A DNA stretch of 64,000 nucleotides from Crossaster papposus (Eukaryota; Echinodermata; Asteroidea; Velatida; Solasteridae): contig JBAIAA010000026.1 in the NCBI GenBank assembly GCA_037893245.1, positions 186,001-250,000 on the forward strand, given 5' to 3'. Numbering within the stretch: the first letter of the stretch is position 1; each line of letters starts with the position of its first letter. The notes under the pieces were generated by a model, which saw nothing but the letters and a program-made list of their open reading frames with translations, did not search any database and was not told where the DNA came from. Of this stretch, positions 1 through 59,900 are shown piece by piece. Position numbers and translations under genes: made by a program.

Positions 1-795
1 GAGATACATGTATGGACTCCATTGATATTAAAGAAACTTAAGAGCGCACTCAATATACTGTGCGGCGCGCTACACGGACGTGCCACCCGGTAATCCGTCT
101 GCCATTTTTAAGTGGGCAATTAACACGATAGTAAAAAGTGTATCATGCACTTTAACGCTGCGGCGGCTATAATTCAGTAAACTTTATTGGACGTTTAATG
201 TCGGTCTCCAGTGACATTGCTTGTGGTACTTGGACAGACAGTTTTATCGGTACTGTAAATGTTCCCCACAAGTCAATGGCGGATCGAGGATTTTCAAGTA
301 GATTACTCATGGCTGATGAGGTCATGAAGTGGCAGACGCAGAGAGTAAAAGGCGTCAAGCATTGGACTGCAGTTGTACAAATGTACTACGCGATGATATG
401 ACAGGCCGATTTTGCATGTTGCTTGGAAACCACCATGGTTTCACTCAAAATCTATTACTTTTTGTTTGTTAATACAATATCCAGGTGACATTGTCGGGAT
501 GATCGTGGTGGTTAGCTGTCCGCACCCTTATTCCAGAAAGTATTTACATGTACTTGTGAAAAGAGACGTTTCTGGTTTTGTTGACCTTGCTCTGATTTGT
601 GCAGCCAAAGCACGCACAAATCTTAGGCATCTCACCCTGCGTGGCAAACGAGATGAAAAGATGCATAGCCTGTGATGCCAACTTGTATTTTTTGCCCACT
701 TAGAAAATGATGTCTATTCATCCTTGTCAACTGGACGAGGTCATGTGATAAATGTGTTCTCTAGTTTCTATAATAACTGCTATACATACATATAT
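1..795. other. No recognisable feature
   Basis: Unique-looking sequence with only short open frames in both strands and no splice-bounded conserved protein stretch. The first recognised repeat starts at 796. Confidence 0.5.
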
Positions 796-1503
796 GTGAC
801 CTGTTCCAACGAAACCCGGACATTTAAAGGTAGTATACCCCATTTGCAGATTTCGAAAATATTTACAACCGAATTATTAAGAATAGCTTACTCATTTGAA
901 AGTAAATAATGATTCTAGGCATCCAGCAAAATGATTGCGCTAGATATTCTGTAATTATTCGCAAAAAACAGTGTTAACATGAGAATAACTGCCCAATTTG
1001 GGTTGAAGACAAACGCTGTTTTTCGTGCTTTTCTCGGCATCCATTATTGTAAAACTTCGGACAGGTCAGTTAAATGATATTTACTATGAAATACAACCCC
1101 CCAAATCTACCCATTAATGATAATTCAAGCAATTACCAATGGTGTATCATACCTTTAAAGTCGCACAATGTGATTTATTACAATGTACTCGTGAAGTCAT
1201 TTATGGTGGATTTTACCAATTTGAAGTTTTGGGTTTTCCTGAATCACAAACTATTCATCTATACAATCTCCGCAAATTTGAACATAATCTTTTTTTTTAA
1301 ACAATTGTTTCAAATAGAAATATTACGTTTTTCCAAACTTTAAAGCCGTTTCTCATAATTAGGTTGTCAGGGTTTTATCACTAAATCCTCTCCCCATATA
1401 TGTAAATGATACATCATTTTAAAGCTGAGAACCTAGAGAATTTGAAAAAGCCATATCTAAAAAACTTGTCAACTTTGTCCGGGTTTCGTTTGATGAGCAG
1501 GTA
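796..1503. mobile_element. GTGACC-type MITE (family B) interrupted by a TTAA-type MITE
   Basis: Starts GTGACCTGTTCCAACGAAAC and ends in a decayed inverted copy, TTTGTCCGGGTTTCGTTTGATG. Body words (GCACAATGTG..TTACAATGTACTCGTGAAGTCATTT) recur at 30018-30422, 35931-36838 and 63796 onwards. It is split by the family A element at 824-1158. Confidence 0.75.
824..1158. mobile_element. TTAA-flanked MITE, family A
   Basis: TTAAAGGTAGTATACCCC at one end and GGTGTATCATACCTTTAA at the other. Family A marks are GGATATCTAGCGCAATCATT, CTAGGCATCCAGCAAAATG and CAACCGGCGTCGAGCAG. Other copies or pieces are near 18429, 22555, 29040, 38116, 43919, 48591, 49768, 50770 and 52425. Non-autonomous; target TTAA suggests piggyBac-like mobilisation (inference). 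Confidence 0.8.
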
Positions 1504-1939
1504 TTTACTCGCACTGTCTCACCTGAAGATACAAATGAGAAATTTGCAAGTTGTCCCTGAGACATGTTACTAGTCGCATTTTGTTCCCGTTCAACCACAA
1601 TTCGTTCAGATGTTTGTAGCATTCCAGAGTATCAACTGCTTCTAGATTTCTGGGGGAAAAAAATGGGGAAAAGTATTAGTACATATGTCGTCAGCGTTTT
1701 CATTAAGAGACAAATTTGGCCACGCGGCGTTGCACATTGGTTTTGAGAAAATCAGGTTTTAAGTTGGTAACTTTTTGAAATAGAGATTTCACCTATAATA
1801 CTTACACTGAAGTATTTGGTATACGTACAGAAAAGTGAGATCTCATTAGCTTTTAAAATATGTACTAATTGAAGAACATTAAACAACATAATTGCCGAGT
1901 AACTATAATCCAAACTATCCGTTTTGCAAAACGTAGGAT

Positions 1940-2270
1940 TTAATTTGCAGGATTGAGGGCACTTGGAAGTTGATGCTTCGGAGGAATTTGCAGGATTGAT
2001 GAAGGCATTTGGGGGTTTGCCACTGAAGGATAATGCAGGATCCAGGTCATAAGGCCTTTACATTGATGTTGGGTGATTTTGCAGGATTGAGGTTACTTAG
2101 GTATTTATCGAAATGAGGATTTTTGAGGATTGAGGTTACATGTATTTGTTACTTTGTACTTTCACACTGCTTATGCTCTATGCACATTCTTCGTAGAGAA
2201 ATAGTCAAGGTGTAAAATAATTATGTATAAGAAACGTTCGCATATACCAAGGGTCATGTGTGTATAAAAC
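1940..2270. repeat. Dispersed repeat with TTTGCAGGATTGAGG units
   Basis: Several degenerate repeats of GCAGGATTGAGG are followed by ACTTTCACACTGCTTATGCTC and CCAAGGGTCATGTGTG. An inverted relative, with CCAATATTGATTACTGG, GACCCTTGGTATGCAAACG and GCATAGAGCAAGAGCAGTG, lies at about 22130-22560. No coding capacity. Confidence 0.6.
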
Positions 2271-2453
2271 CATAAGATACTTAAAGGTCGCATTCCTGGC
2301 TAGTGCGCTATCCAGTGTCTGCATTCAACCGTGCACTGATTTATTATTAGCCCTAACCCCCTAGGCTCTCGCACTAGAAAGCATACAAAACAAACTTCAA
2401 CAACTCACACAGGTTCGGTAATTATTGGTACACTGTACTGAACCTAACAGTAG

Positions 2454-3022
2454 CCCAGGTTGGACTCCTCCGTTGTGTACAATGGGACGGAGTCCAGGGT
2501 ATTAATGTACTGTATCCTGCCATAGCGAAAAATTTTACAACTTTTTTTCATATTTTTTCCTGATGAAGAAAGCCAACATCTCGCTTATGTATTTCTTATG
2601 TCTGGAATTACAGATCGTCGTGGGTTATTAAAAGGTAATGTGTCTTTCTTTAGGCAACCTATTTACAGAAAATAAATTGCAAATCCACACTTGACGTGAA
2701 CATCATGTACGAACTCTCTACAATCCCTACATGCGTGCGCGGGTACCCGGCAGCCGCGACGGCCTAGAACTGATAAGCCAGGCGCGTGCAGAATTTATTT
2801 TCTGTAAATAAGTTGCCTACATGTAAAGACACATTAACTATGATAACCCATGACGATCTGTAATTCCAGACACAAGAAATACATAAGCGAGTTTTCGGCT
2901 TCCTTCATCAGGTAAAAGTATGAAAAAAAGTTGTTGTAAAATTGTTCGCTATGCCTATGGCAGGATACATTAATACCCTAGACGTCAGTCGTAATGCAAT
3001 GAAGAACTTCGTCCAACCCGGT
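2454..3022. repeat. Foldback (long palindrome) with arms of about 230 bases
   Basis: GGGTATTAATGTACTGTATCCTGCCATAGCGAAAA on the left is mirrored on the right, ending GGCAGGATACATTAATACCC. The arms continue through CATAAGCGAG/CTCGCTTATG, the ACAGATCGTCGTGGGTTAT pair and GGCAACCTATTTACAGAAAATAAAT. The loop near 2690-2790 is CG-rich. Confidence 0.8.
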
Positions 3023-3154
3023 TAAAACTAACGTACTAAACCTGCCAAACTCCAACAGTTGAAGCTTGCCTTGACTTGTTACAGATGGGTTAATGCATTG
3101 TTGAGTATCAGTGCAGTGATGACTGGTCAGTGGTAGACTTGAAATCAAGTCAGT

Positions 3155-3345
3155 AATCAGAGGCGTGTGCAGGATTTTTTCCTGCGGGGGGCTGAGTCAA
3201 ATCATATTTTTTTTTTTCGTTTTTTCTTTCGTTTTTTCTTTCCTCCTTTCCTTCTTTTTTCTCTCTCATTTTTTTTGGGGGGATCCGCGTGTGCGGGGGG
3301 CTTCAGCCCCCAAAGCCCCCCCCCTGGACACGCCAATGGTAATTA
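3155..3345. mobile_element. Short element with GGCGTGT(G/C)CAGG ends and pyrimidine-rich body
   Basis: Left GAGGCGTGTGCAGGATTTTT and right CCCCTGGACACGCC form a short inverted repeat around a T/C-rich tract and GGGGGCTTCAGCCCCC. Probably a MITE inserted in the family K copy. No coding. Confidence 0.45.
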
Positions 3346-4080
3346 AGTGGTTTATTTGCCTCTCGCGGCCGCCACGCCTGCGCCTGCCATCCCTGCCGGG
3401 GTGTACTGTGGCGGTATGAATGGATGACGCGCTACAGCTATACGAACGTTGCATGAATGGCAGCATGCGGATTTGTTATGCATGGCGATATTTGGCGGCG
3501 CTGGCAGGCGGACAAAAACCACGAAAGTCTAACGACTTAATTGTCATCAAGTCTAGGCCAGTGGTAGAGTGGGGACGTGCACACAGGGGTGTACATACAC
3601 AACAGTTGACCAGGAACTGTGCCGTGACCATGGGTGAGCTCACCAATGAAATAAATGCCTGTGCATTCCCCAAACTCCACAATTTGTACAAGTCTCATGC
3701 CTTTCTGCCCTGAACAGGGCCTCCCTGGGCATTTGGTACTGAGTCAAACAAAGTCCAACAACAGTTGCAGTTAGAGTTTGATGGATTTGGGGTAGTTAGG
3801 GTTTAATCCAGCTATTCAGCATTGGTTTTGTATGCCAACAGTTTTGTATGCCAATGGCTTAGGCACAGAACTAAAATGTCTGTTCCCAGAGTTAAAATGA
3901 CGTACCGTTCAGCAAGGTAGAGTTGTGACACATCCAAGTTTTTTCTGATTCCATTATTATGCATCTCGGGCTTTATCAACTGTAATGGAAGAGATACATC
4001 AGAGAAAACACGTCAAATTTCACGACATTATTCTATCATTAATCCATTGTCACAAGTGTCCGGATTGATTTATCTTTTTT

Positions 4081-5070
4081 AGCTGTTTCGGTTTTTCACC
4101 GAAACAGCTCTTGTAATCGTTAAAGTTTTTTGTTTTCTTTTTCTCCTTTTTCAGACTTTTCTCCATAGGATTTGCACACGTTTATTCAGACAATACACTT
4201 TGACACTTTGGTAAATCCGATGGACTTGAGACTTGGCATACACTTAGACAACCACCCAAGGACGGTCCTAGAAGAAATTCGTCGCGATTACGTCATTCAA
4301 GGTCACGTGACTTCGCGTTAAAGGTGAAATTTTCCCCATAGGTTTTGTACACGTTTTTCTTCAGACTCTTGACTTTGACACTTTGGTAAATCCGACCGAC
4401 TTGAAACTTGGCATACACTTAGAACACCCTTCTTAGATATTTCTGAAAGAAATTCGGCACGATTGCGTCATTCACGGTCACGTGACGTCACATTAAAGGT
4501 GCACATTTTTCTCCCATTGGTTTTGTACACGTTTTTGTTTAGACTGTTGACTTTGACACTTTAGTAAATCCGATCGACTTGAGACTTGGCACACACCTAG
4601 ACCACCATCCGCAGACGGCCCTAAAAGACTTGAAACTTGGCATACACTTAGAACGCCACCCCCAGATGTTCCACGAAAAAATTCGGCACGATTGCGTCTT
4701 TCAAGGTCACGTGACGTCTTGTTAAACGTTTAATTTTTCCCCCATAGGTTTTGTACACGTTTTTCTTTAGACTATTGACTTTGACACTTTAGTAAATCCG
4801 ATCGACTTGAGACTTGGCACACACTTAGCACACACTTAGACCACCATTCACAGACGGTTCTAAAAGAAATTCGGCACGATTACGTCATTTAAGGTCACGT
4901 GACGTCACGTTAAAGGTTTAATTTTCCCCCCATAGGTTTTGTACACGTTTTTCTTTAGACTTGACTTTGACACTTTCGTAAATTTGATCGACTTGAGACT
5001 TGGCACACACATACACCACCACACACACATATTGAAACAGCTCTGTGTTTGTCCACAAACACATGTCTAG
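4081..5070 (+). mobile_element. Putative Helentron-associated tandem element (HINE-like)
   Basis: Starts with a hairpin (AGCTGTTTCGG.TTTTTCACC.GAAACAGCT) and ends GAAACAGCTC, a hairpin GTGTTTGTCCACAAACAC, then ATGTCTAG before T. Between lie about five units of 177-228 bases marked by CATAGGTTTTGTACACGTTT, ACTTTGACACTTTGGTAAAT and GGTCACGTGACGTCA. Subterminal inverted repeats, tandem core and a hairpin-CTAG|T end fit rolling-circle non-autonomous elements. No Rep/helicase is present. A single-unit relative is at about 44740-44957. Confidence 0.6.
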
Positions 5071-47900: not shown

Positions 47901-50900
47901 CTACAATTGCCTCTCTCCACCCAGGAGTAATGGGTACCTGTGAAGGTAGAAAACATGCGCTGATCTTGAGCTGCTGCAGAAATGGTCTCGTTCCTGGTGA
48001 ACAGGGATAATAGTTGTAAAGCGCTTTGATACACGGACATATTGTGGGAGTCTAAAGCGCTATATAGAAAAACGAACGTTATTACAAGTATTTGTTCATA
48101 TTGTTTATTATCAAATGACAAGAATCCAGTAATAAGGTGTTATATATTGTACCTGGGTATTTACCTGAGGAATCCACTATTCTCTCCCCTTGGGGCGAGT
48201 AATTATGGGAAGACAATCTGAGTAAATTACAATTTAAGAGATGGGAAGCATTACTGTGAGGCCAAAGACGTGAAAACCTTTTGTTGAAACAAAAAACGTA
48301 AAAAGATACAAATCGGTCCCATTCGTCACTTTTTGAAATACTCGAAAAAGGAACCTATTGTACTTTTCAAGTGTTTTGTTCCAGCAAAAGGTTTTCACGT
48401 CTTTGGGCCTCACAGTGTAACCCTAGAAGAATATTTGGATGAAAACCGGCGGAGTCAAGTAGGTACTGACAACTCAATCCACAGGTTGGTCCAGGCACGG
48501 TTCCAACAAGGATCACAGTAGTGGAAGGTGAGGGAAGTGCCACAACGCCAACCTGACTCCATGAATTAACATCCCTTTTTACTTAATATCCTAAAGGTAG
48601 GATACACCATTTGTGACCCGCTCCATCGAAATCAGAAATAAGTCTCAAGCTTTCTAATGATACCCATCATCAGTGTGTAGGTGTTTAGGTTAACGAGTTA
48701 TGGTCTGATGAAGATGACAGGTGTATATTTATTTGCCGAATCCACATTCCGAGAAAAACAGCTTCGAAACAAACAAAATTGACCAAAATCATACAGACAG
48801 CGCACACAAATCCTCTTCATTTTTATCTTTATTGATCGTTTTTACATACAAGACATTAATGACAATAATCTGTGATGACTACATGTACACTTCCAAAAAA
48901 TACAATGTTCAGAAAATTGACTTGGTCACGATTTTCACCCATGCGTTCACTTCATCGGTCGATTGCGTAAAACGGCCTCAGCGACTTATTCCTGATTACG
49001 ATGGAGCGGGTCACATTTGCAGATATCAAAAAATCTTACTACCGAAATATTAACAAATATCTTACTTTTAGGTAAATATCTTACTTACTTGAAAGTAAAT
49101 AATGATTGTAGGCATTCAGCAAAATGATTGCGCTAGATATCCTGTAATTTATTCCGAAAAATTCAATTTTATACAAAACAAATCGTGATCGCCGGACGAC
49201 GATCATGAAAAAAACAATAACAACTGCCCGATGCCGATTGAAAACTAATGCCGTTTTTCTTGCTTTCCTCAGCATCCATGATCATAAAACTTCAGATAGG
49301 TCAGTTAAACGATATTTAATATGAAATACAACCCCCAAATCCACCCATTCCTGACAATTCAAGTAATGGTGTATCCTACCTTTAAAGGGATCGTATACGT
49401 TTGGTAATTGGAACCCAATGTTTGTTTCAATTCTATATAGTTATACATGTGTATGCCATAACACTAACCTGTAAAAATTTCATTTCAAATGGTGGTAGCG
49501 ATTTTGAGATATTGCCGAAAATCTGGAGCGGTACATGTCCACGCAGGAAGAATAATCTGCATTGGAATACAGTCTGAGAAACGTCACTGCGCTTCTCAGA
49601 TTCAATTTTTTTGGGATAAAAAGTGATATTTTTGTCCATAACCGCAGCAGTTCAAAGTGAAAAGTTTCTAAAAATGCATTATACTATCCAAAGCTGCTGT
49701 ACTTCTTACCAAGTAAGTTTTTATTGCCATTAATTTGTGGAGTAATTACCAAACGTATACGATCCCTTTAAAGATACACCATTTGCTTTTGCTGTAATTT
49801 CGGAAAATTTGATGGGTCGGGATTTTATATTTATTGTAAATACCGTATTGTGACGCTGACCATTTTTAAAGTTTTGTGTTCATAAATGCTGGAAAAACAA
49901 AAACAGTTTAATGCTGTTTTGTAGTCTGGTTCCTTGACTTCCTTCAGACGAAACAGAATAATTTAAAGACTTAGAAAAAAGCAAGAAAAACGGCATTCGT
50001 TTTCAACCGGTGTCAGGCAGTGGTTCTTTTCGCGATCGCCGTCTGGCGATCGTAATTTCTTTTTTATATCAAATTTGATTTTTCAGAATAATTACAGGAT
50101 ACCTAGCGTAATCCTTTTACCGGTACTTGATGCCTACCGTACAATCAATATTTACTTTCAAATAAGTAAGATATTTCGTAATAATTTTGTAGTAAAATGG
50201 TGTATCCTACCTTTAAAGATGGGTTTATAACTTACAAATGTAATACCGACATTCACACCATTTACAACTGATATTGATAATTTGACTTTTGGCCATGAAT
50301 ATAGGGAAGCGCTGGTTGGTGTAGCACTGCTACCGGTACGTTCCAGAACAAGATGTTGTGGACTCGTACATGTACATGTTATTTGCTGCGATGCATGTTA
50401 TCCCTACAATACGACACGGCCTGCGATTTATTTCACAAAACACATTGCTGCCATGCAGACTCATCACTCTAATTTTGAAATCAAGAGCCATTCATAATTT
50501 CTATTTTAACGAGTCGAATTGTGTTAATTACAGGATATCTAGCGCAATTCTTTTGCTGGATGCCAACAATCATTATTTACTTTCAAACAAGTAATAATAT
50601 TTGAATAAGGATAAAACTGCTGCAAACTGCTTACTGGCTGGAATGACCTGAAATATACAAATCAAATAAGGGGCCTAATATTTCGATCTTAACAAGATCT
50701 TCTTCAGAGACTAAAAAAAAATTTAAAAAAATATATATAAATTTGTTAATAATTTGGTAGTAAAATTTTGGGAATAATTACAGGATATCTAGCGCAATCC
50801 TTTTGCTGAATGACTAGAATCATTATTTACTTTCAATTGAGTAAGATATTTCTTAATAATTCGGTAGTAAATATTTTCGATATCTGCAAATGGTGTATCC

Positions 50901-53900
50901 TACCTTTAAGGTTCAATGTAAGATGAGATATTTTTGATACCTTGTGTAGTTAAATAGCCTGCTATCCCACAACATGTGTTGCCCACGATGTCCCTCATGG
51001 AAGAAACAGGAATCAGAGCCATCAAACTGATTGAGTCCATCCAACACATTCTTGGCTGCGTGGCTGTGCACGACATCTAAGAACACCAGCAGCCCTCGCT
51101 GATGGGCCTCATCAACTAACCGCTTCAGAGCTTCTGGGTTGCCATAGCGACTGTTTCAATGAAAAACAATGGTAGTACAGTTGAGCAAAAAAAGAAGAAA
51201 TTTTTTTTTTTTTTCAAATGTGACCGGCTCTACAAAAAGGTGTATTAAGTCACGCTGTGCACTATCATGTAATGGCCCGCTCAACATTGAGAGAATAAAC
51301 ATTTTATCAAAAGGTGATTTTCATTTGTTGTCATGAATGACATCTTTAATACCTATAGTTACAGGTTTCATTCAAAGAAATGTTGATTTTGCTGAATAAA
51401 GTGGAAACAAAATAACATTTTGTGTGCACCGTTCTGTTGTAGTACAACAGAGCCGGCTATTTCAAAGCCTGTTTTCTCAGTTGTATAATTTAAACTCCAT
51501 GGAAGTAATCAATATGTAAACACATCATATCTCCAAAACGAGAGGGGCTATGGAGCTATATTGTATACCAAATGAAAGCTTATGCTGTGGGCGTTTTAAC
51601 CATGTATATAACTCAATTTCTTATTTTGCGACATAATACACCTTTTTGTAGAGCCAGTCACAAATACTACCCCTTTGTTTTACTATTCAATTATTCTTCA
51701 TTTTCTTTGCAATTAATTACACACCTGTGTAGGGGCACAAGCCAGCTAGACTATACAGGGTGTCAAACAAAAACAAGATACCCATTTTTAAATTCATATT
51801 ATTGTAAATCTACTTAATTTTTCAGAAAAAATGTCTGTGGAAAAGGTAGAGTGCCCTCTTTCCAATGGTACAAGGTTCATTATGTCATTGCCGTGGATAA
51901 CTGAACAAACAAGACATTTATGAAAGGCACTAAAATCGGCACTGTGACAAGTTGTTTTTACTTGAGTGACAAAGATCAGGCAGATCAGGACAAATTCTTT
52001 TGCTGTTTGAACACATTGAACAAGTTATGACAGGGTCCATGAATCTTTTTTTTTTATCCATTTCTTTTTTGTGGTACATGTACACTTACCTGACAAATTT
52101 AAGGTGATGTACATGTACCCTCCACATGGCCACTATTCCTGTTAATGCATAGCTGGCAATTTTTGTCTCATGTCTCTTACTGCCCGCCCAACCCAACCTC
52201 AACCCAACTTGTCACAGTGCTGATTTCAGTACCTTTCATGAATGTCTTGTTTGTTCAGTCATTCATGGCAATGACATAATGAACCTTATACCATTGGACA
52301 GAGGCCATTCTATCATTTTCACAGGCATTTGTCTTTTTCAGAAATATTCAGTAGTAAATCTTTTTTTGTTAGACACCCTGTATAACTAACATCGATAATA
52401 TGGTTTCAAAGATACTGGTTTCCACTTAGGTAGGATACACCATTGGTAATTGCTCGAATTATCATGAATAGGTACATTTTTGGGGGTTGTATTTTATAGT
52501 AAATGTCCTTTAACTGACCTTTCTGAAGTTTTACAATCATGGATGCCGAGAAAAACACGAAAAACAGTGATTGTTTTCAACCGGCGTCGAGCAGTTATTC
52601 TTATGTTATCTTTTAGTGAGGTGGATTAAGGAAAAAATCGTTACACGGTGGACAAAAGCACCATTTTTTCACCAAAGTATCAGTTTGACCCATAGATTTC
52701 AAAAAAGTCATGCTCCAAAAAATCTGAGAATTGTTAACCTTGAATTACGTCATTATGACGTCATAACCTCTTGTTATGTAATAAAGCAAACGCAAATGCC
52801 ATGGTGGGATTTCTACATGCCAAAATTATGTTTCTGAGGTCAAGGAATTCAATGAGGGTGGTATTAGTTTGTAAAAAATTAATATCCTTTATGGTGACTA
52901 CATGTATATTGATGTAAATATGACGTCATCATCGTCAATACTACACAAATAACACATTTTAAAAAAAACGATTTTATTCCCGTTTTTTCACCAAAATGCT
53001 ATTTTTTGTGTGTTCAAAATGGTAACAGTATAATTACCGTGGCACTGATCTACAAGATACCATGATGTCATTATGATATAATAAACAATAACTATCAACC
53101 AAAACAATAACACATTAACACAATGAAACACAATGATTCTGACCGGATATAGGTTATGACAGGATATTTATTATATTGAATAGCGCATATAACAGTTAGT
53201 TTGTGTAGACGAGGGATTATAGTGTGTACCATTTATTTAACTGCATCTTACAGTTACAGTTATTAGGTTTTTTTTACAGTTTATTACTATTAACCACCTA
53301 CTTAAAGGGGCAGGATCGTCGCTAAAAAAATTGGCGTTCTCGGGAAACCTGTACCCAAGTCAATCAATGCTGGTCCATTTGTTTGACGTCACAACTGTTT
53401 AAGTCTAATATTATAGTCTAAAGATTTTCCCCGTTCTCCTGCACACCTCACTGAACAAAAACCTGACCGAAAGAAAACATTGAGTGTGCTTGAGAATGGC
53501 AAGGAGAATCAACAAAAGCCAAAAAAATCACAAAACTAAAAAAGCAAGAGAAAGATCGTTCGAGTCTCGCAAAATAAGTAAAAAGCAAAACTAGAACAGA
53601 CGAGAACGATCACTCTCGAAATGAGGGCCAAGAAAAGTATGCCTTATGTGAAAAATCTATCAGACGCTCAACTCTCCAACATTGAACTGGTAGCATTGGG
53701 CAGGGGCCTTAACTTCATCCCGACCCCCAAAAAAACAAAAAGGTCGACCATCCTTCGCCATTCCCGATCCTTCTTCAGAAAGATGAGATTACGGTTAAGA
53801 ATGGCAGGGAGAGTCAGACCTATAAGCTCACACCCGTTCAAACTACCTTCAACTTGGACTCCCCAACCTACCTTCAATCTAAACCTAGAGTCATATATTG

Positions 53901-56900
53901 AAGGCACTCTGGAGGAACTGTCCAGACTGAAAATTCAAAATGTCAAACTAAATATAACAAAAGCAGAACGTGTTGCGCTATCTGGCCTTAAGAAAAGACA
54001 GGATATTATCATCAAACAATTCGATAAAGGCCGCGGTGTGTGCGTCCTTAACAAACAAGACTACATACGTGAAGGGACACGACAATTAACAGGCCCCCAC
54101 TATGAAGAAATTAACAGGGACTTGACCGATGAAACCGCGGAATTAGTCTCTCAAGCCATACGCCAACTCTACGTGGACGGACTCATATCGAAAGACATAT
54201 CTGAGTTTCTTAACCCCCGCAACCACGACATTAAAACACCTTGCCTTTACCTCCTACCGAAAGTTCACAAAAAAGTACCAGAAGGAACACGGTTCGTGGG
54301 GAGGCCAATCATTAGTGGTTGCGGAGGACCGACTCAATCCATATCCAAATACATAGACTATTTCTTGCTCCCAATTGTCAAACAGCAAAGCACATACACA
54401 CGCGATTCTGGGCATGTGCTTGAAAAACTAAATAACCTGACATTGGAGCAAGATAACTTATTGATAACACTGGATATAGTATCCATGTACACTAACTGCC
54501 CACAAGATGAGGCAATTGAATCAGTTGTGACGCACTTGCAATGGCCGATGACAGACTATACGCAATACCCAAGCCCACGACAGACCACGCGCGACGTCTC
54601 CTTGAACTCATTATGCGTCGAAACACGTTTGAATTTAATGGCAAGTTTTTCAGACAAAAAATTGGCGTGGCCATGGGCAGCGAATGCAGTCCGGAGATTT
54701 GTGACATAACTCTATTCAAATACGAACAAGACAAAATCCTCCCTCACAATCCCTCAATTGTGAGCTACATGAGATATAGAGACGATGTTCTTATAATCTT
54801 TAACGGAAATGAAAAGCAGGCTGCTGACCTAGTGCAATATCACTTAATAAAATTCACCCTACGCTGAAGTTCACGTCTGAGATCTCGCTCCCTCAAGTCA
54901 CTTTTCTCGACCTTATTATCTACAAAGGCGAACGATTCATACATGAAGGAATATTGGATACTCGAGTCGCTACCAAAAAAACTGATACATTTCAGTACCT
55001 AGCTCGAGATTCAGCACACCCTAAGTCGGTATTTGGCGGATTAATCAAGGGCGAAGTGACCAGATACAAACGTATATGTACCCATTCAAAAGACTTTGAG
55101 GAGAGGGTTGAATACTTCAAAGACAAACTTCAAAAGCGCGGATACACAAACGAAGACCTAGCTCTCCTTTCTCAAAGGGGAAAGACTTCCGCGGACCCTA
55201 AGCGTGAAAAAAACAAAAACAATATCCCACTGGTGTTCGTCCTACCATACTACCCACATGTCGCGCACCACCCAGCCCTGAAACGGGCTATCCTCAAACA
55301 CTGGCCCTTGATTAGCGAAAACGAATATCTGAATAGGCTATTTGATACCCAACCCATCCGGGCATACAAACGGCACAAAAACATAAAAGATGAACTTGTT
55401 CGATCTAGGACTAAAGCGTCTCCACAATCCAACCAAGAGGAACAAAATCTTGATGAGGAGAATCTGCAAATTCTATTGGAACTATTGAAAGAACAAAACA
55501 ATGATCAAAGAAATGGATCTCAAGACTAAAACAAAATAAATAAGTCAACCCCCCCCCCCCCCCCCCCTTGTCCTTGCCACGCGTCATAATAAACCGACAC
55601 ACACACAAAAAAGGAAAGTAAAATGAACTATAAGAAGGTGGCTGATGACGTGCATGATATAGCACAGAAAATATGCCCTGCTCCTCTTCCAAAAAAGGAG
55701 AAAAAAGAGGGGACGGCATATTATCACCGGTAAAAATAAATCACTGTGTGAACCAAAAACAAAGGGACCACTGTGGCAATACACAAACCAGTCATCGCGT
55801 CGCCAAAACCAGAGACAGGGTTTGAAACTCCCGCTTTTAGGGAATGTCTAACCCAATTGGCCTGCAGACGTTTGATGTATTTGCCCGTCCACGAACTCCA
55901 ACCACGGACTGTCATCTAGCAGAGATAAGGTGGCTAAAACTGACCCCCAGATGCGTGTCTTACGGAAAAAAAGGAAAAAAAGAGTTAAAAATCACGCTCT
56001 GGAGAGACCAGTCAAACAGCCACTTTCTAGCATACCCACTAGTTAACGTACAATTACAGATTTATCTTCGGCAGAACAGTCACAAATACAATCCATATGA
56101 TACTTGTCAGCAGAACCTTTTCCGCGTCTCAAAAAAATAACGAAAAGAACGGAGGGGTTCTGTTGAAACTTGTACACAGAAACACCCACCCCCCCCCCCC
56201 CCCCCCATTCCTACAGACTGCAATCTCGCGGAAAAAAAGTGGCCTGAACTGACCTCCCATGAAGCGTATATCACTAGAAAAAAAACTTAAATTAGGAATT
56301 ACGCTCTGGGCGGGATAGTTACGCAACCACACTGCTGGCATACCAGCACACAATAAATCATGCAGATTTATCTCTGTAGACCAGCCACTACCTAAAATCC
56401 AATGATACCTTACGCAGCAGAACTGCTTCAGCATCTCCAAAAAAATAACGAAAACGATGAGAAAAAGTTCTGACTTAGTGAAAACTCCATAAAACACCCT
56501 CCCCTTCCCACATAGAATGAGTTCTGATTCACTGCAGCTAACTCTAGAATTGGTAAAAAAACACACACAAAAATGAACTGATCATTCCTTGAAGTATGCC
56601 TGCATAAACCGGTTTCTCTGTGCTATACCTTCTTGCAAAAGCACTCCATTAGAATTAAAAAACCTAATAGCCTCACAGAAAAAGAAAAGAAAATTCCACA
56701 AAACCCAGTATTACACGTCCTTCACGTTAATGTCCTTCCCAGGTGACCGAGAATTGAGTGACATGTATGATTACGCTGCTTCACAATAAACACAAAGTTA
56801 TATATGGCAATTGCATTGTCTGAAACTGAAACAAAACCATTTCAATCCAAAACCGAGTTATAATTACAAATGTTACTAACATTGGTCTGCTAGCCATCAC

Positions 56901-59900
56901 AACCATGAGCTAAAATTGAAACATGTTAAAATATTTTAATACAAACCACTGATTTTCCCACGGTGATGATGATGTATTTTATACCATCATATGCTAATAT
57001 AGACAAATTTAATACAAAAATTATGAAACTGTTTGTTTCAGCGCAACACAAACGTTGCCATGCGATTCCTTGGCCTTTGATACAAATAATTCGCTACTAA
57101 AATCACTTGCCTCGGCATTATATAACTAAAAACATGCCGTTTTAAGGAAATGGCGGCCATTTTGAATATATTACGTCATAATTAGGTCAAGGTCATTGCA
57201 ATTTTTTTGGAGCATGGGATTTTATTAATCTACATACCCATAGGAGTCTTTAAAAAAAATTTGGTGCTTTTGTCCACCGTGTCACGATCTTCGTGTTTTT
57301 TGTCCTTAATCCACCTCACTATTTGTTGTTTCGCAATCGCCGTCCGGCGATCACAAAATTGTCTTTATAAAATTCTGCTTTCCGGAATAATTACAGGATA
57401 TCTAGCGCTATCATTTTGCTGAATGCCTAGAATCATTATTTACTTTCAAATGAGTAAGATATTTCTTAATAATTCGGTAGTAAATATTTTCGATATCTGC
57501 AAATGGTGTATCCTACCTTTAATTGTTGGGGATTTAGTCTTTAAAAAAACCATATAATCTCAAAATCGACCACCCCTTCAAATTTTGACTTTGACTGGCC
57601 GTACTGGGAAGTGGGAAATCACTCCGTGTGACTTTACGCTCATTTTGTGATGGCAGGTCACAAATGAAAGAAAATGGAGAAGAAGACAAATTAGGGTGAT
57701 GTTGAAAATTGTAGGTCAAACGAATTTTCTGAGTTCGAGTCCAAACAAAAGAACCTTCCCTCACAACTAGGTGTTTGCTAGAACACGTTTACCTTGCGGC
57801 TGCATAGAAGCTAGTGACTTGATACCCAAAGCTTGCATAGAAGGCATGCTCCATAATAGCCATCAGTTGAACTGCGTTATAACCTGGGAAGACAATTCAA
57901 AAGAAAAGTAAAAATGCAGGCTGCAAATTTTAAAGATGGGTTTATAATGTATTCCAACATTAACGTCCGTCGATGTCAGTTTTTTTTAATAATCAAATAT
58001 ATCGGAAATTCAATTTGATTATTTCCCGTGTGCAAGATGAAGCCTAAAAACGACGCTCATTATACTGAAGACCGACAGTTTAATAGGTAAGTTGCATATA
58101 CCGGTTTTCGGCTTGATCTTCCGCGCATGTTGTCGGTCCGAACAATATCAAATTGCGCCAGCCCTCGTGTTTATGGTTTTACAACGAATATAAAAAATGA
58201 TTACGGTGGCCGATTTCGCTTGCTAGTTGATTCCAAGACCGAGCTGTTTATTTGTTCCGGGGCGCGCCGTCCGCTATCTGGGCTTATTGAGGGCGCCCTT
58301 AATTATAAGGGCGCCCTCAATAAGCCCAGATAACGGACGGCACACCCCTGAACAAATGAACAGCTCGGTCTTGGAATCCAGACTGGCTTGCTAGGCCAAT
58401 AGCAGGGTGCATAGAACGCTCCCCGCAATTCCCAACTCGTGATTGGCCACCCCGAAATGTTAGCAGATCAAGGGAGGGTTACGTCCCGAACAACCGTTAG
58501 ACTGGGGCGGCATGGCCGGTTTTGTTTTAAATTTTACTGTGCAAGCAGTTGTGAACTATAGCGCGGGCCACGGGTGAAACACAAAGAACAACTTCACAAC
58601 CGCAGTTGGTCGTTGAACGTATTTTATTTAATAGGCCTACTCAAATTTTTAAGCTACAAATAAAGACGGCAGCTTTTCTAATACACTAAAGCCCTTAGAT
58701 TTTATGGATATTCTGACACTCTTTCGGTGTTTTCGTTATCATTTAGGAACATCGAAATTTAGATACATCAACATTTTCGATACATCTAAATGTCAATATT
58801 TTGATATGATTAAAAAAGTGACATCGGCGATATCGATGTCAAAATAGTATCGAGTATTTGAGTAATATCGATATATCGATGAACGTTATTCAACATTTAC
58901 ACCATTTACAATTGATAATTTGACTTGTGGCCAAGGATGCACTGATGCGCTTGTTGGTGTAGCAGTGCTATGGCGTTCCAGCACCAGATTTCATGGATCA
59001 TTCATGTCATCATGGAACTCATTCACTCATCAGTTTTCTCTTTGTGACATCTACCATACACATGTACAATGATGTACCTTGCTTTTGTATCCTTGGTAGA
59101 ACATTGTCTGTAAAGTTGTCGTAGCTTGAGATCTCTCCTTTCCATGAAGCAATGCCGACGTGTGCCTCATAGATCATAAGCCCTGTAGAAGAATATAAAT
59201 GTTGCATTCAATGCCAGTAAATCTCAGGACTGTATCACCAAATGTTTGGCTCTAACATGCTACTATTCAATCTCCTCTGTCATGTTTACATGTATGTAGG
59301 TAAATTATGTTGTCTATCCTATATTGTTTCCATTATAATACACACACAATAATTATTATGTACATGACTTTATTGGGACATTCCATAGGGTTTGTGTGCT
59401 TAACCCTAACCCCCCAGGCTCTCGCACTAGAAAGCATACCAAACCTAACAAACTTCGACAACTGCATATACAGGTCAAGTAGTTAACTCTAACCCTCTAG
59501 GCTCTCGCACTAGAAAGCATACCAAACCTAACAAACTTCAACAACTGCACACAGGTTCAGTAATTATAACCCTAACCCCCTAGACTCTCGCACTAGAAAG
59601 CATACCAAACCTAACAAACTTCAACAACTCACACAGGTCCAGTAGTTAACCCTATTCCCCCAGGCTCTCACGCTAGAAAGCATAGCAAACCTAACAAACT
59701 TTGACAACTGCATACAGGTCAAGTAGTTAACTCTAACCCCCTAGGCTCTCGCACTAGAAAGCATATCAAACCTAACAAACTTCAACAACTGCACACAGGT
59801 TCAGTAATTATAACCCTAACCCCCTAGACTCTCGCACTAGAAAGCATACCAAACCTAACAAACTTCAACAACTCACACAGGTCCAGTAGTTAACCCTATT

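Follow-up and report, generated by a model that had tools for sequence, protein, structure and literature searches.

How does the gene of a reverse transcriptase (RT) come to lie between the inverted repeats of a DNA transposon, and do both travel as one element? The question is raised by a stretch of 64,000 nucleotides from the asteroid Crossaster papposus (assembly GCA_037893245.1, contig JBAIAA010000026.1, positions 186,001 to 250,000 of the forward strand), which is called the window throughout. A sequence-only reading had delimited there, at 52617-57319, a unit with inverted repeats and a TA duplication, inserted cleanly into a miniature inverted-repeat transposable element (MITE), whose only recognisable gene was a Penelope-like RT; it proposed either an RT-bearing inverted-repeat element or, as the plain alternative, the nesting of one element in another. 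The unit is almost certainly a Penelope-like element (PLE), here PLE-1, nested in a DNA transposon, here F1, and amplified with it as a composite. This follows from three observations: the PLE-1 boundaries fall well inside the unit (Table 1), PLE-1 occurs without F1 ends both dispersed (L050) and in an array (L049), and F1 ends are found elsewhere around other PLEs (L and C with a number designate fetched loci and contigs, the window lying on C26). Nesting, which the earlier reading had named as the alternative, is thereby confirmed, boundaries inside the unit being what that reading had named as refuting a single element.

The transposon F1 and its insertion site

Inverted repeats do enclose the RT-bearing unit, and its boundaries could be refined to 52614-57321 (element positions 1-4708, position 1 being window 52614). 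The 24-nt terminal blocks (52614-52637 and 57298-57321) are 96% complementary and are followed inward by blocks of 36, 30, and 19 nt; a longer imperfect inverted repeat relates element positions 1-109 to 4590-4708 at ~71%, and the termini read TAGTGAGG...CCTCACTA. In the 1.02-Gb assembly, over which all genome-wide counts were made, the 17-mer end is found exactly 150 times in forward and 157 times in reverse orientation (reversed control: 0 and 0), and with up to two mismatches 160 and 166 times. Older, diverged F1 copies that escaped filling were considered and rejected, as the two mismatches raise the total from 307 only to 326. Among the end matches listed, 53 F1 elements were recognised, namely 47 facing pairs spanning 1.7-7.2 kb and six single ends. 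The sequences of 44 of the 47 pairs (the window, L009-L048, and L051-L053), of three of the six single-ended elements (L054, L055, and L066), and of one additional copy outside these 53 (L056) were read; approximately 100 F1 copies are known from pattern counts alone.

The TA taken earlier for a target duplication is part of the F1 ends, because the duplicated bases are the 3 bp outside it. TA is present at both ends in all 44 copies read (40, 3, and the window), and exactly 3 bp beyond it are duplicated in 42 of them, L015 and L036 being the exceptions; 10,000 shuffles of the flanks gave 2.2 matching copies on average and 11 at the maximum. F1 is a non-autonomous cut-and-paste DNA transposon with a 3-bp target duplication. 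It departs from the signatures of three superfamilies. Tc1/mariner elements duplicate TA, whereas in F1 this dinucleotide lies within the ends. CACTA/EnSpm elements combine a 3-bp duplication with 5'-CACTA...TAGTG-3' ends, and F1 agrees in the size of the duplication but has these ends reversed (5'-TAGTG...CACTA-3'). PIF/Harbinger elements have TWA as their target, while the 42 duplications of F1 comprise 25 different triplets. The target duplication of PIF/Harbinger is likewise 3 bp in size (PMC2213677).

The insertion in the window is clean, as had been read: it is flanked by a TTT duplication, and the corresponding empty site, GTTATCTTTGTTC, is present in L050 within a related repeat. The receiving sequence is not a MITE but a fragment of a repeat that is also found in tandem upstream of stand-alone PLE-1. 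Further pieces of this host repeat, which thus occurs both around the composite and upstream of PLE-1, lie at window 50023-50196, 50525-50593, and 50766-50904. Immediately left of the composite there is a 126-nt inverted repeat (window 51829-51954 and 52205-52330) with 88% complementarity and 250 nt between its halves. No RNA families were found in window 52000-58500.

Seven refillings of one transposon

F1 copies have ~500-800 bases of the left and 330-530 bases of the right arm in common and differ in their interiors, and all 53 listed copies hold PLE sequence instead of a middle. Seven kinds of refilling (A-E, G, and H; Table 1) can be distinguished, comprising three PLE types, both orientations, and seven left breakpoints. 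Each kind is devoid of 170 to 752 bases of transposon that are present in other kinds, as calculated from the breakpoints, and the further bases common to kinds C, G, and H imply that the transposon formerly extended there. Genome-wide, the junction of kind A was counted 19 times, that of B 53 times (up to two mismatches), the one common to C, G, and H 22 times (18, 3, and 1 when split by match length), that of D 28 times, and that of E 36 times, a sum of 158; a 39-bp match on C25 was dropped from the joint C, G, and H count and 24 rows with three mismatches from the B count. Kinds A to E have thus each been amplified to 18-53 copies. The 158 junctions compare with ~150-166 elements estimated from the ends, although the junction patterns also count truncated copies, so this agreement is no proof that empty copies do not exist. 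Judged by coordinates, 51 of the 53 elements listed contain the junction of one of the kinds; the two left over were assigned by sequence, L051 to kind B and L066 to kind E. A tree of the arms of 46 copies had low support and separated the kinds poorly (mean distances 0.5-3%), and no order of events is given.

Several copies were considered as candidates for other structures and rejected. L051 (C204, 1704 bp), tried as an empty element, belongs to kind B and has a deletion; the single ends on C17, C59, and C246, tried as intact or autonomous copies, belong to kinds H, G, and E, respectively; and of the large copies tried as transposase carriers, L036 holds a frame resembling that of a long interspersed element (LINE) and L053 is of kind E. 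The frame in L036 (705-4115, +) is open over 1137 aa (RVT_1 137.7 bits, PHD finger, endonuclease) and is inserted in this one copy of kind E. In copies of kind D (e.g., L035 2091-2594, -), ~930 additional bases include a frame of 168 aa that resembles leucine-rich repeats by eye, has no Pfam match, and is perhaps a captured piece of a host gene.

Table 1. Features of the composite (window positions) and the seven kinds of refilled F1 (element positions).
Feature	Position	Strand or filling	Basis or remark
Left terminal inverted repeat	52614..52722	+	5'-TAGTGAGGTGGATTAAGGA..., imperfect, ~109 bp
Left transposon arm	52614..53419	+	element positions 1-806; shared part ~98% identical in most other copies
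PLE-1	53420..56793	+	~96-97% to stand-alone L049 and L050; 3' end ...AATAAACAC abuts right arm
RT open reading frame, in pieces	53624..55526 (53624-54706, 54520-54864, 54828-55526)	+	broken by indels in the window copy
Right transposon arm	56794..57321	+	element positions 4181-4708
Right terminal inverted repeat	57203..57321	-	~119 bp, ends ...CACTA
Target duplication, left copy (TTT)	52611..52613		flank comparison
Target duplication, right copy (TTT)	57322..57324		flank comparison
Host repeat holding the composite	52428..57517 (parts 52428-52613 and 57322-57517)		also inside 577-bp tandem repeat upstream of stand-alone PLE-1
Kind A (window)	left arm to ~806, right from 4181	PLE-1 +	sequence comparison
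Kind B	left to 706, right from ~4179, ~45 bases of no assigned origin before right arm	PLE-1 -	sequence comparison
Kind C	left arm and 327 further bases, right from 4351	PLE-1 +	sequence comparison
Kind D	left to 726, right from 4282	PLE-2 +, RT mostly lost	sequence comparison
Kind E	left to 512, right from 4321	PLE-2 -, RT kept	sequence comparison
Kind G	258 of kind C's further bases, right from ~4364	PLE-1 relative (86-88%) +	sequence comparison
Kind H	202 of kind C's further bases, right from ~4379	PLE-1 relative (86-88%) -	sequence comparison

In every kind a PLE end sits directly on a transposon arm, and wherever it is comparable it is the 3' end. To within 2 nt, it is the PLE-1 end AATAAACAC that abuts the arm in kinds A, B, C, G, and H and in a second transposon family, F3 (6/6), and the same end terminates both stand-alone copies. 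Determined by program, with kind B as the reference for the arm across the break in A and the opposite arm as the reference in F3, the pairing overlap between arm and PLE amounts to 2 bases in A, 4-5 in B, 2-3 in F3, 2 in H, 1 in G, and none in C, which has 7 extra bases. An overlap of at least 2 is thus present in four of six junctions (P from 2e-4 to 0.013 for assumed rates of 1/16 to 3/16). On the PLE 5' side, inspection by eye revealed filler copied from the neighbouring arm in kind A, AGTCTAA-TATTAT-AGTCTAAAG, and a TTC overlap in kind D. The 24 rows dropped from the B count represent the PLE-1 end joined to different DNA, and two of them, L057 and L058, together with L065 are the copies read of the inverted-repeat element F3, which carries the PLE-1 end and is itself nested in a family F2. 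F3 measures 977 bp in L057, with 26-bp ends, which occur 225 times genome-wide at up to one mismatch, and outside the PLE L057 has no similarity to F1. F2 has 41-bp ends, and 8 of the 9 copies read are flanked by a 7-bp duplication; it exists without F3 in L059 (823 bp) and L060 (796 bp).

PLE-1 of the window is 95.9% identical to the dispersed copy and 96-97% to the array copy, and in both of these stand-alone copies the RT frame is open over 679 codons. The array consists of 6575-bp units, head to tail and 100% identical across 2826 overlapping bases, and a stand-alone unit holds two frames of 679 and 218 codons. Pfam scans of all six frames of one such 6575-bp unit contained no GIY-YIG domain, which bears out the earlier statement that no nuclease domain was seen. 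We take PLE-1 and PLE-2 to be Penelope-like from characteristic motifs and the sequence-only reading, the profile support being a weak RVT_1 match (25.5 bits for the window interior and 28.5 bits for PLE-1, both below the cut-off of 29.6); the best PDB match to the RT is weak as well (E 0.29), a structure model of the RT reached a mean pLDDT of 31 and was set aside, and the RTs of PLE-2 and PLE-1 share 26% identity over 326 aa (E 4e-28). Searches with two RT pieces gave 150 scored matches of 3690 first-look candidates and 113 of 2876. On several contigs (C190, C691, C700, C723, C790, C943, and others) the PLE-1 RT matches are spaced by ~6.57 kb, and the interior of PLE-2 contains an array of ~98-bp tandem repeats (L026, element positions 1390-2032; L016). 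Both stand-alone PLE-1 copies also contain a histone 3' stem-loop, RF00032, at L049 5013-5058 (-) and L050 5895-5940 (-) with 43.6 and 41.3 bits, in L049 ~25 bases behind the 218-codon frame. The stem-loop suggests that a retroelement transcript may undergo histone-type 3' processing, and a literature search returned no paper on a PLE with a histone stem-loop.

The RT of kind A has decayed since its capture. Changes were counted by codon position in five copies against the intact array frame, L009 and L029 of the seven copies read being left out for deletions. Changes common to at least four of the five copies are distributed 5:3:13 over the codon positions, and those common to all five include no frameshift or stop, with one in-frame 3-base insertion among the shared changes. 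Private or minority changes are distributed 10:8:8, accompanied by private indels and by one stop in three copies. Private changes thus stand at 18:8 (positions 1 and 2 against position 3) compared with 17:30 for earlier changes, i.e., shared changes and those between array and dispersed copy (Fisher p 0.008). As private changes look neutral, the RT probably entered F1 intact and then decayed freely as a passenger, judging from the codon pattern.

A candidate mechanism and its competitors

The other F1 copies with such replacements suggest a retroelement that copies itself onto broken transposon ends. The whole account that we lean towards is that a PLE in which no endonuclease is recognisable replaced the middle of F1 by priming on broken ends, and that the product was amplified in trans; for the priming step taken by itself, we consider the case evenly balanced. 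We infer priming on free 3' ends in a failed repair and a transposase acting in trans. An F1 copy would be broken or excised, and copy-back would halt part-way and leave free 3' ends within the transposon. The PLE RT would pair the 3' end of its RNA with such a free end, often over ~2 nt, and reverse-transcribe from there, whereupon end joining would close the far side and truncate the 5' part of the PLE. The refilled copy would retain both ends and could be moved by a transposase encoded elsewhere. The broader proposal, that endonuclease-lacking PLEs regularly land on broken 3' ends in DNA transposons and that refilled transposons spread PLE sequence, with F1 wholly PLE-filled among the 53 listed copies, is tentative and in our judgement somewhat more apt to fail than to hold.

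Several points weigh against this account. No intact unfilled F1 copy turned up among the listed elements and the near-exact ends, nor did an F1 transposase, and hence there is no direct view of the deleted middle or of the repair. Kind H is represented by a single copy and G by three, amplification being seen for A to E only, and the right arms of A and B begin at the same base, so the independence of these two kinds rests on left breakpoint and orientation. By the exact rule, the junctions of D and E are gaps of 6 and 8 bases without overlap; this is because the two copies compared differ by substitutions, and with these allowed the common end meets the arm, by eye, with as many as 4 paired bases in D and 2 in E. 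Microhomology is expected under DNA-templated filling too. PLE-2 is known from truncated copies, no stand-alone copy having been read, and its truncated frame had no Pfam match at all; moreover, an endonuclease may act in trans or be too diverged for Pfam. The evidence from F3 is confined to the arm junction, and four F2 copies read (L061-L064) have other extra sequence without a match to these PLEs. Empty and otherwise filled F2 copies show that refilling by PLEs is no rule for every family.

It is unlikely that PLEs entered intact F1 copies by ordinary target-primed insertion and that each kind then lost a segment reaching from the 5' part of the PLE over the transposon centre before it was amplified; yet this course would leave an identical picture if only deletions keeping both F1 ends survive. 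Target-primed insertion does yield PLEs with a complete 3' end and a shortened 5' part, and the abundance of PLE-1 (150 scored matches) makes nesting expected. This course nevertheless needs a deletion in all seven kinds, while simple insertions number 0 among the 53 listed copies, and no endonuclease was found in the six-frame Pfam scans of the stand-alone PLE-1 unit. DNA-templated gap filling, in which the polymerase repairing a broken F1 copy changes template to a PLE located elsewhere as in the gap-filling model for Pack-TIRs, transposons with terminal inverted repeats (TIRs) and captured interiors, appears improbable. It is known in animals with a median microhomology of 2 bp (PMC8277862), and the filler in kind A that is copied from the arm fits it. 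Gap filling predicts arbitrary boundaries of the filler, however, whereas in all six PLE-1 cases one boundary lies no more than 2 nt from the PLE-1 3' end and every one of the seven F1 fillers is a PLE; furthermore, the published breakpoints lie close together, at a median of 4.6% of the element (PMC8277862), compared with at least 170-752 bases missing in F1.

A functional RT-bearing inverted-repeat element, as the sequence-only reading had envisaged, is very improbable and can be taken as refuted for this genome. Joint travel of RT and ends is real, since 19 copies have the window's left, RT-side junction together with these ends, and 11 of these 19 adjoin the 11 matches that rank highest, the window aside, for the C-terminal RT piece (97-99% identity); the N-terminal piece ranks differently, its best other matches on C248, C624, and C116 not being among the 19. 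That both form one RT-bearing unit did not hold: the RT is also found without F1 ends, the ends are also found with other or truncated PLEs, and the RT changes after capture look neutral. Finally, an assembly artefact, conceivable as repeats assemble poorly, can practically be dismissed with identical junction bases recurring 19 to 53 times across many contigs and proper 3-bp duplications in 42 of 44 copies read.

The question at stake is how endonuclease-lacking PLEs integrate away from telomeres. With seven kinds of refilling of one transposon whose arms are known on both sides, priming on broken ends becomes directly testable.

Comparison with known systems

The Ds elements of maize are non-autonomous internal-deletion derivatives of a TIR transposon; F1 resembles them as a non-autonomous derivative with an internal deletion, a likeness that concerns the deletion. 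On the side of the retroelement, Athena and Coprina are names of endonuclease-deficient PLEs. Endonuclease-lacking PLEs are described as having two frames and forming arrays, and the 3' ends of Terminons are said to attach to exposed chromosome ends (PMC6431247). PLE-1 is like them in its two frames, the lack of a detected endonuclease domain, a size of ~6 kb, and its head-to-tail arrays (PMC6431247, PMC3846280), and among the elements described here the combination of no GIY-YIG, two frames, and tandem arrays (listed from PMC6431247) applies to PLE-1 only. Terminons sit on telomeric ends, in contrast to the ends within DNA transposons found here, and the likeness is one of features. Telomerase RNA, moreover, has been described to be reverse-transcribed into double-strand breaks over few paired bases (PMC2246262). 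There too a related RT primes on broken DNA ends with the help of few paired bases, as proposed here, although enzyme and RNA belong to the host and not to a mobile element within a transposon.

On the side of the transposon, MER6 is described as a mariner MITE that contains body and tail of a V-SINE (PMC6887750). As in F1, the 3' part of a retroelement is kept and its 5' part lost in a DNA transposon that is reduced to its ends and spreads it; as far as that description goes, MER6 has a non-coding short interspersed element (SINE) in one MITE group, whereas in F1 a single transposon has been refilled in seven ways from three PLE types, and some of the fillings include an RT gene. TIR transposons filled during gap repair are known as Pack-TIRs (PMC8277862), and they share with F1 the TIR element, a foreign interior acquired after break repair, microhomology, and multiplication of some copies (PMC8277862). 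In F1, too, the captured sequence lies within a single DNA transposon, flanked by its TIRs. By comparison with Pack-TIRs, the filler of F1 is a retroelement in all seven kinds and starts at its own 3' end where comparable, so that, for PLE-1 only, a DNA-template filler with arbitrary boundaries does not apply (6/6 cases); more of the interior is missing, and 53 of 53 listed copies are refilled. In the titles and abstract openings found, a search in which subscription journals are little covered, no TIR family refilled by PLEs was reported. The PLE-refilled F1 is a variant of known transposon filling and hitch-hiking that is new in form, and it shows a route by which hybrid mobile units can arise from retroelements and DNA transposons.

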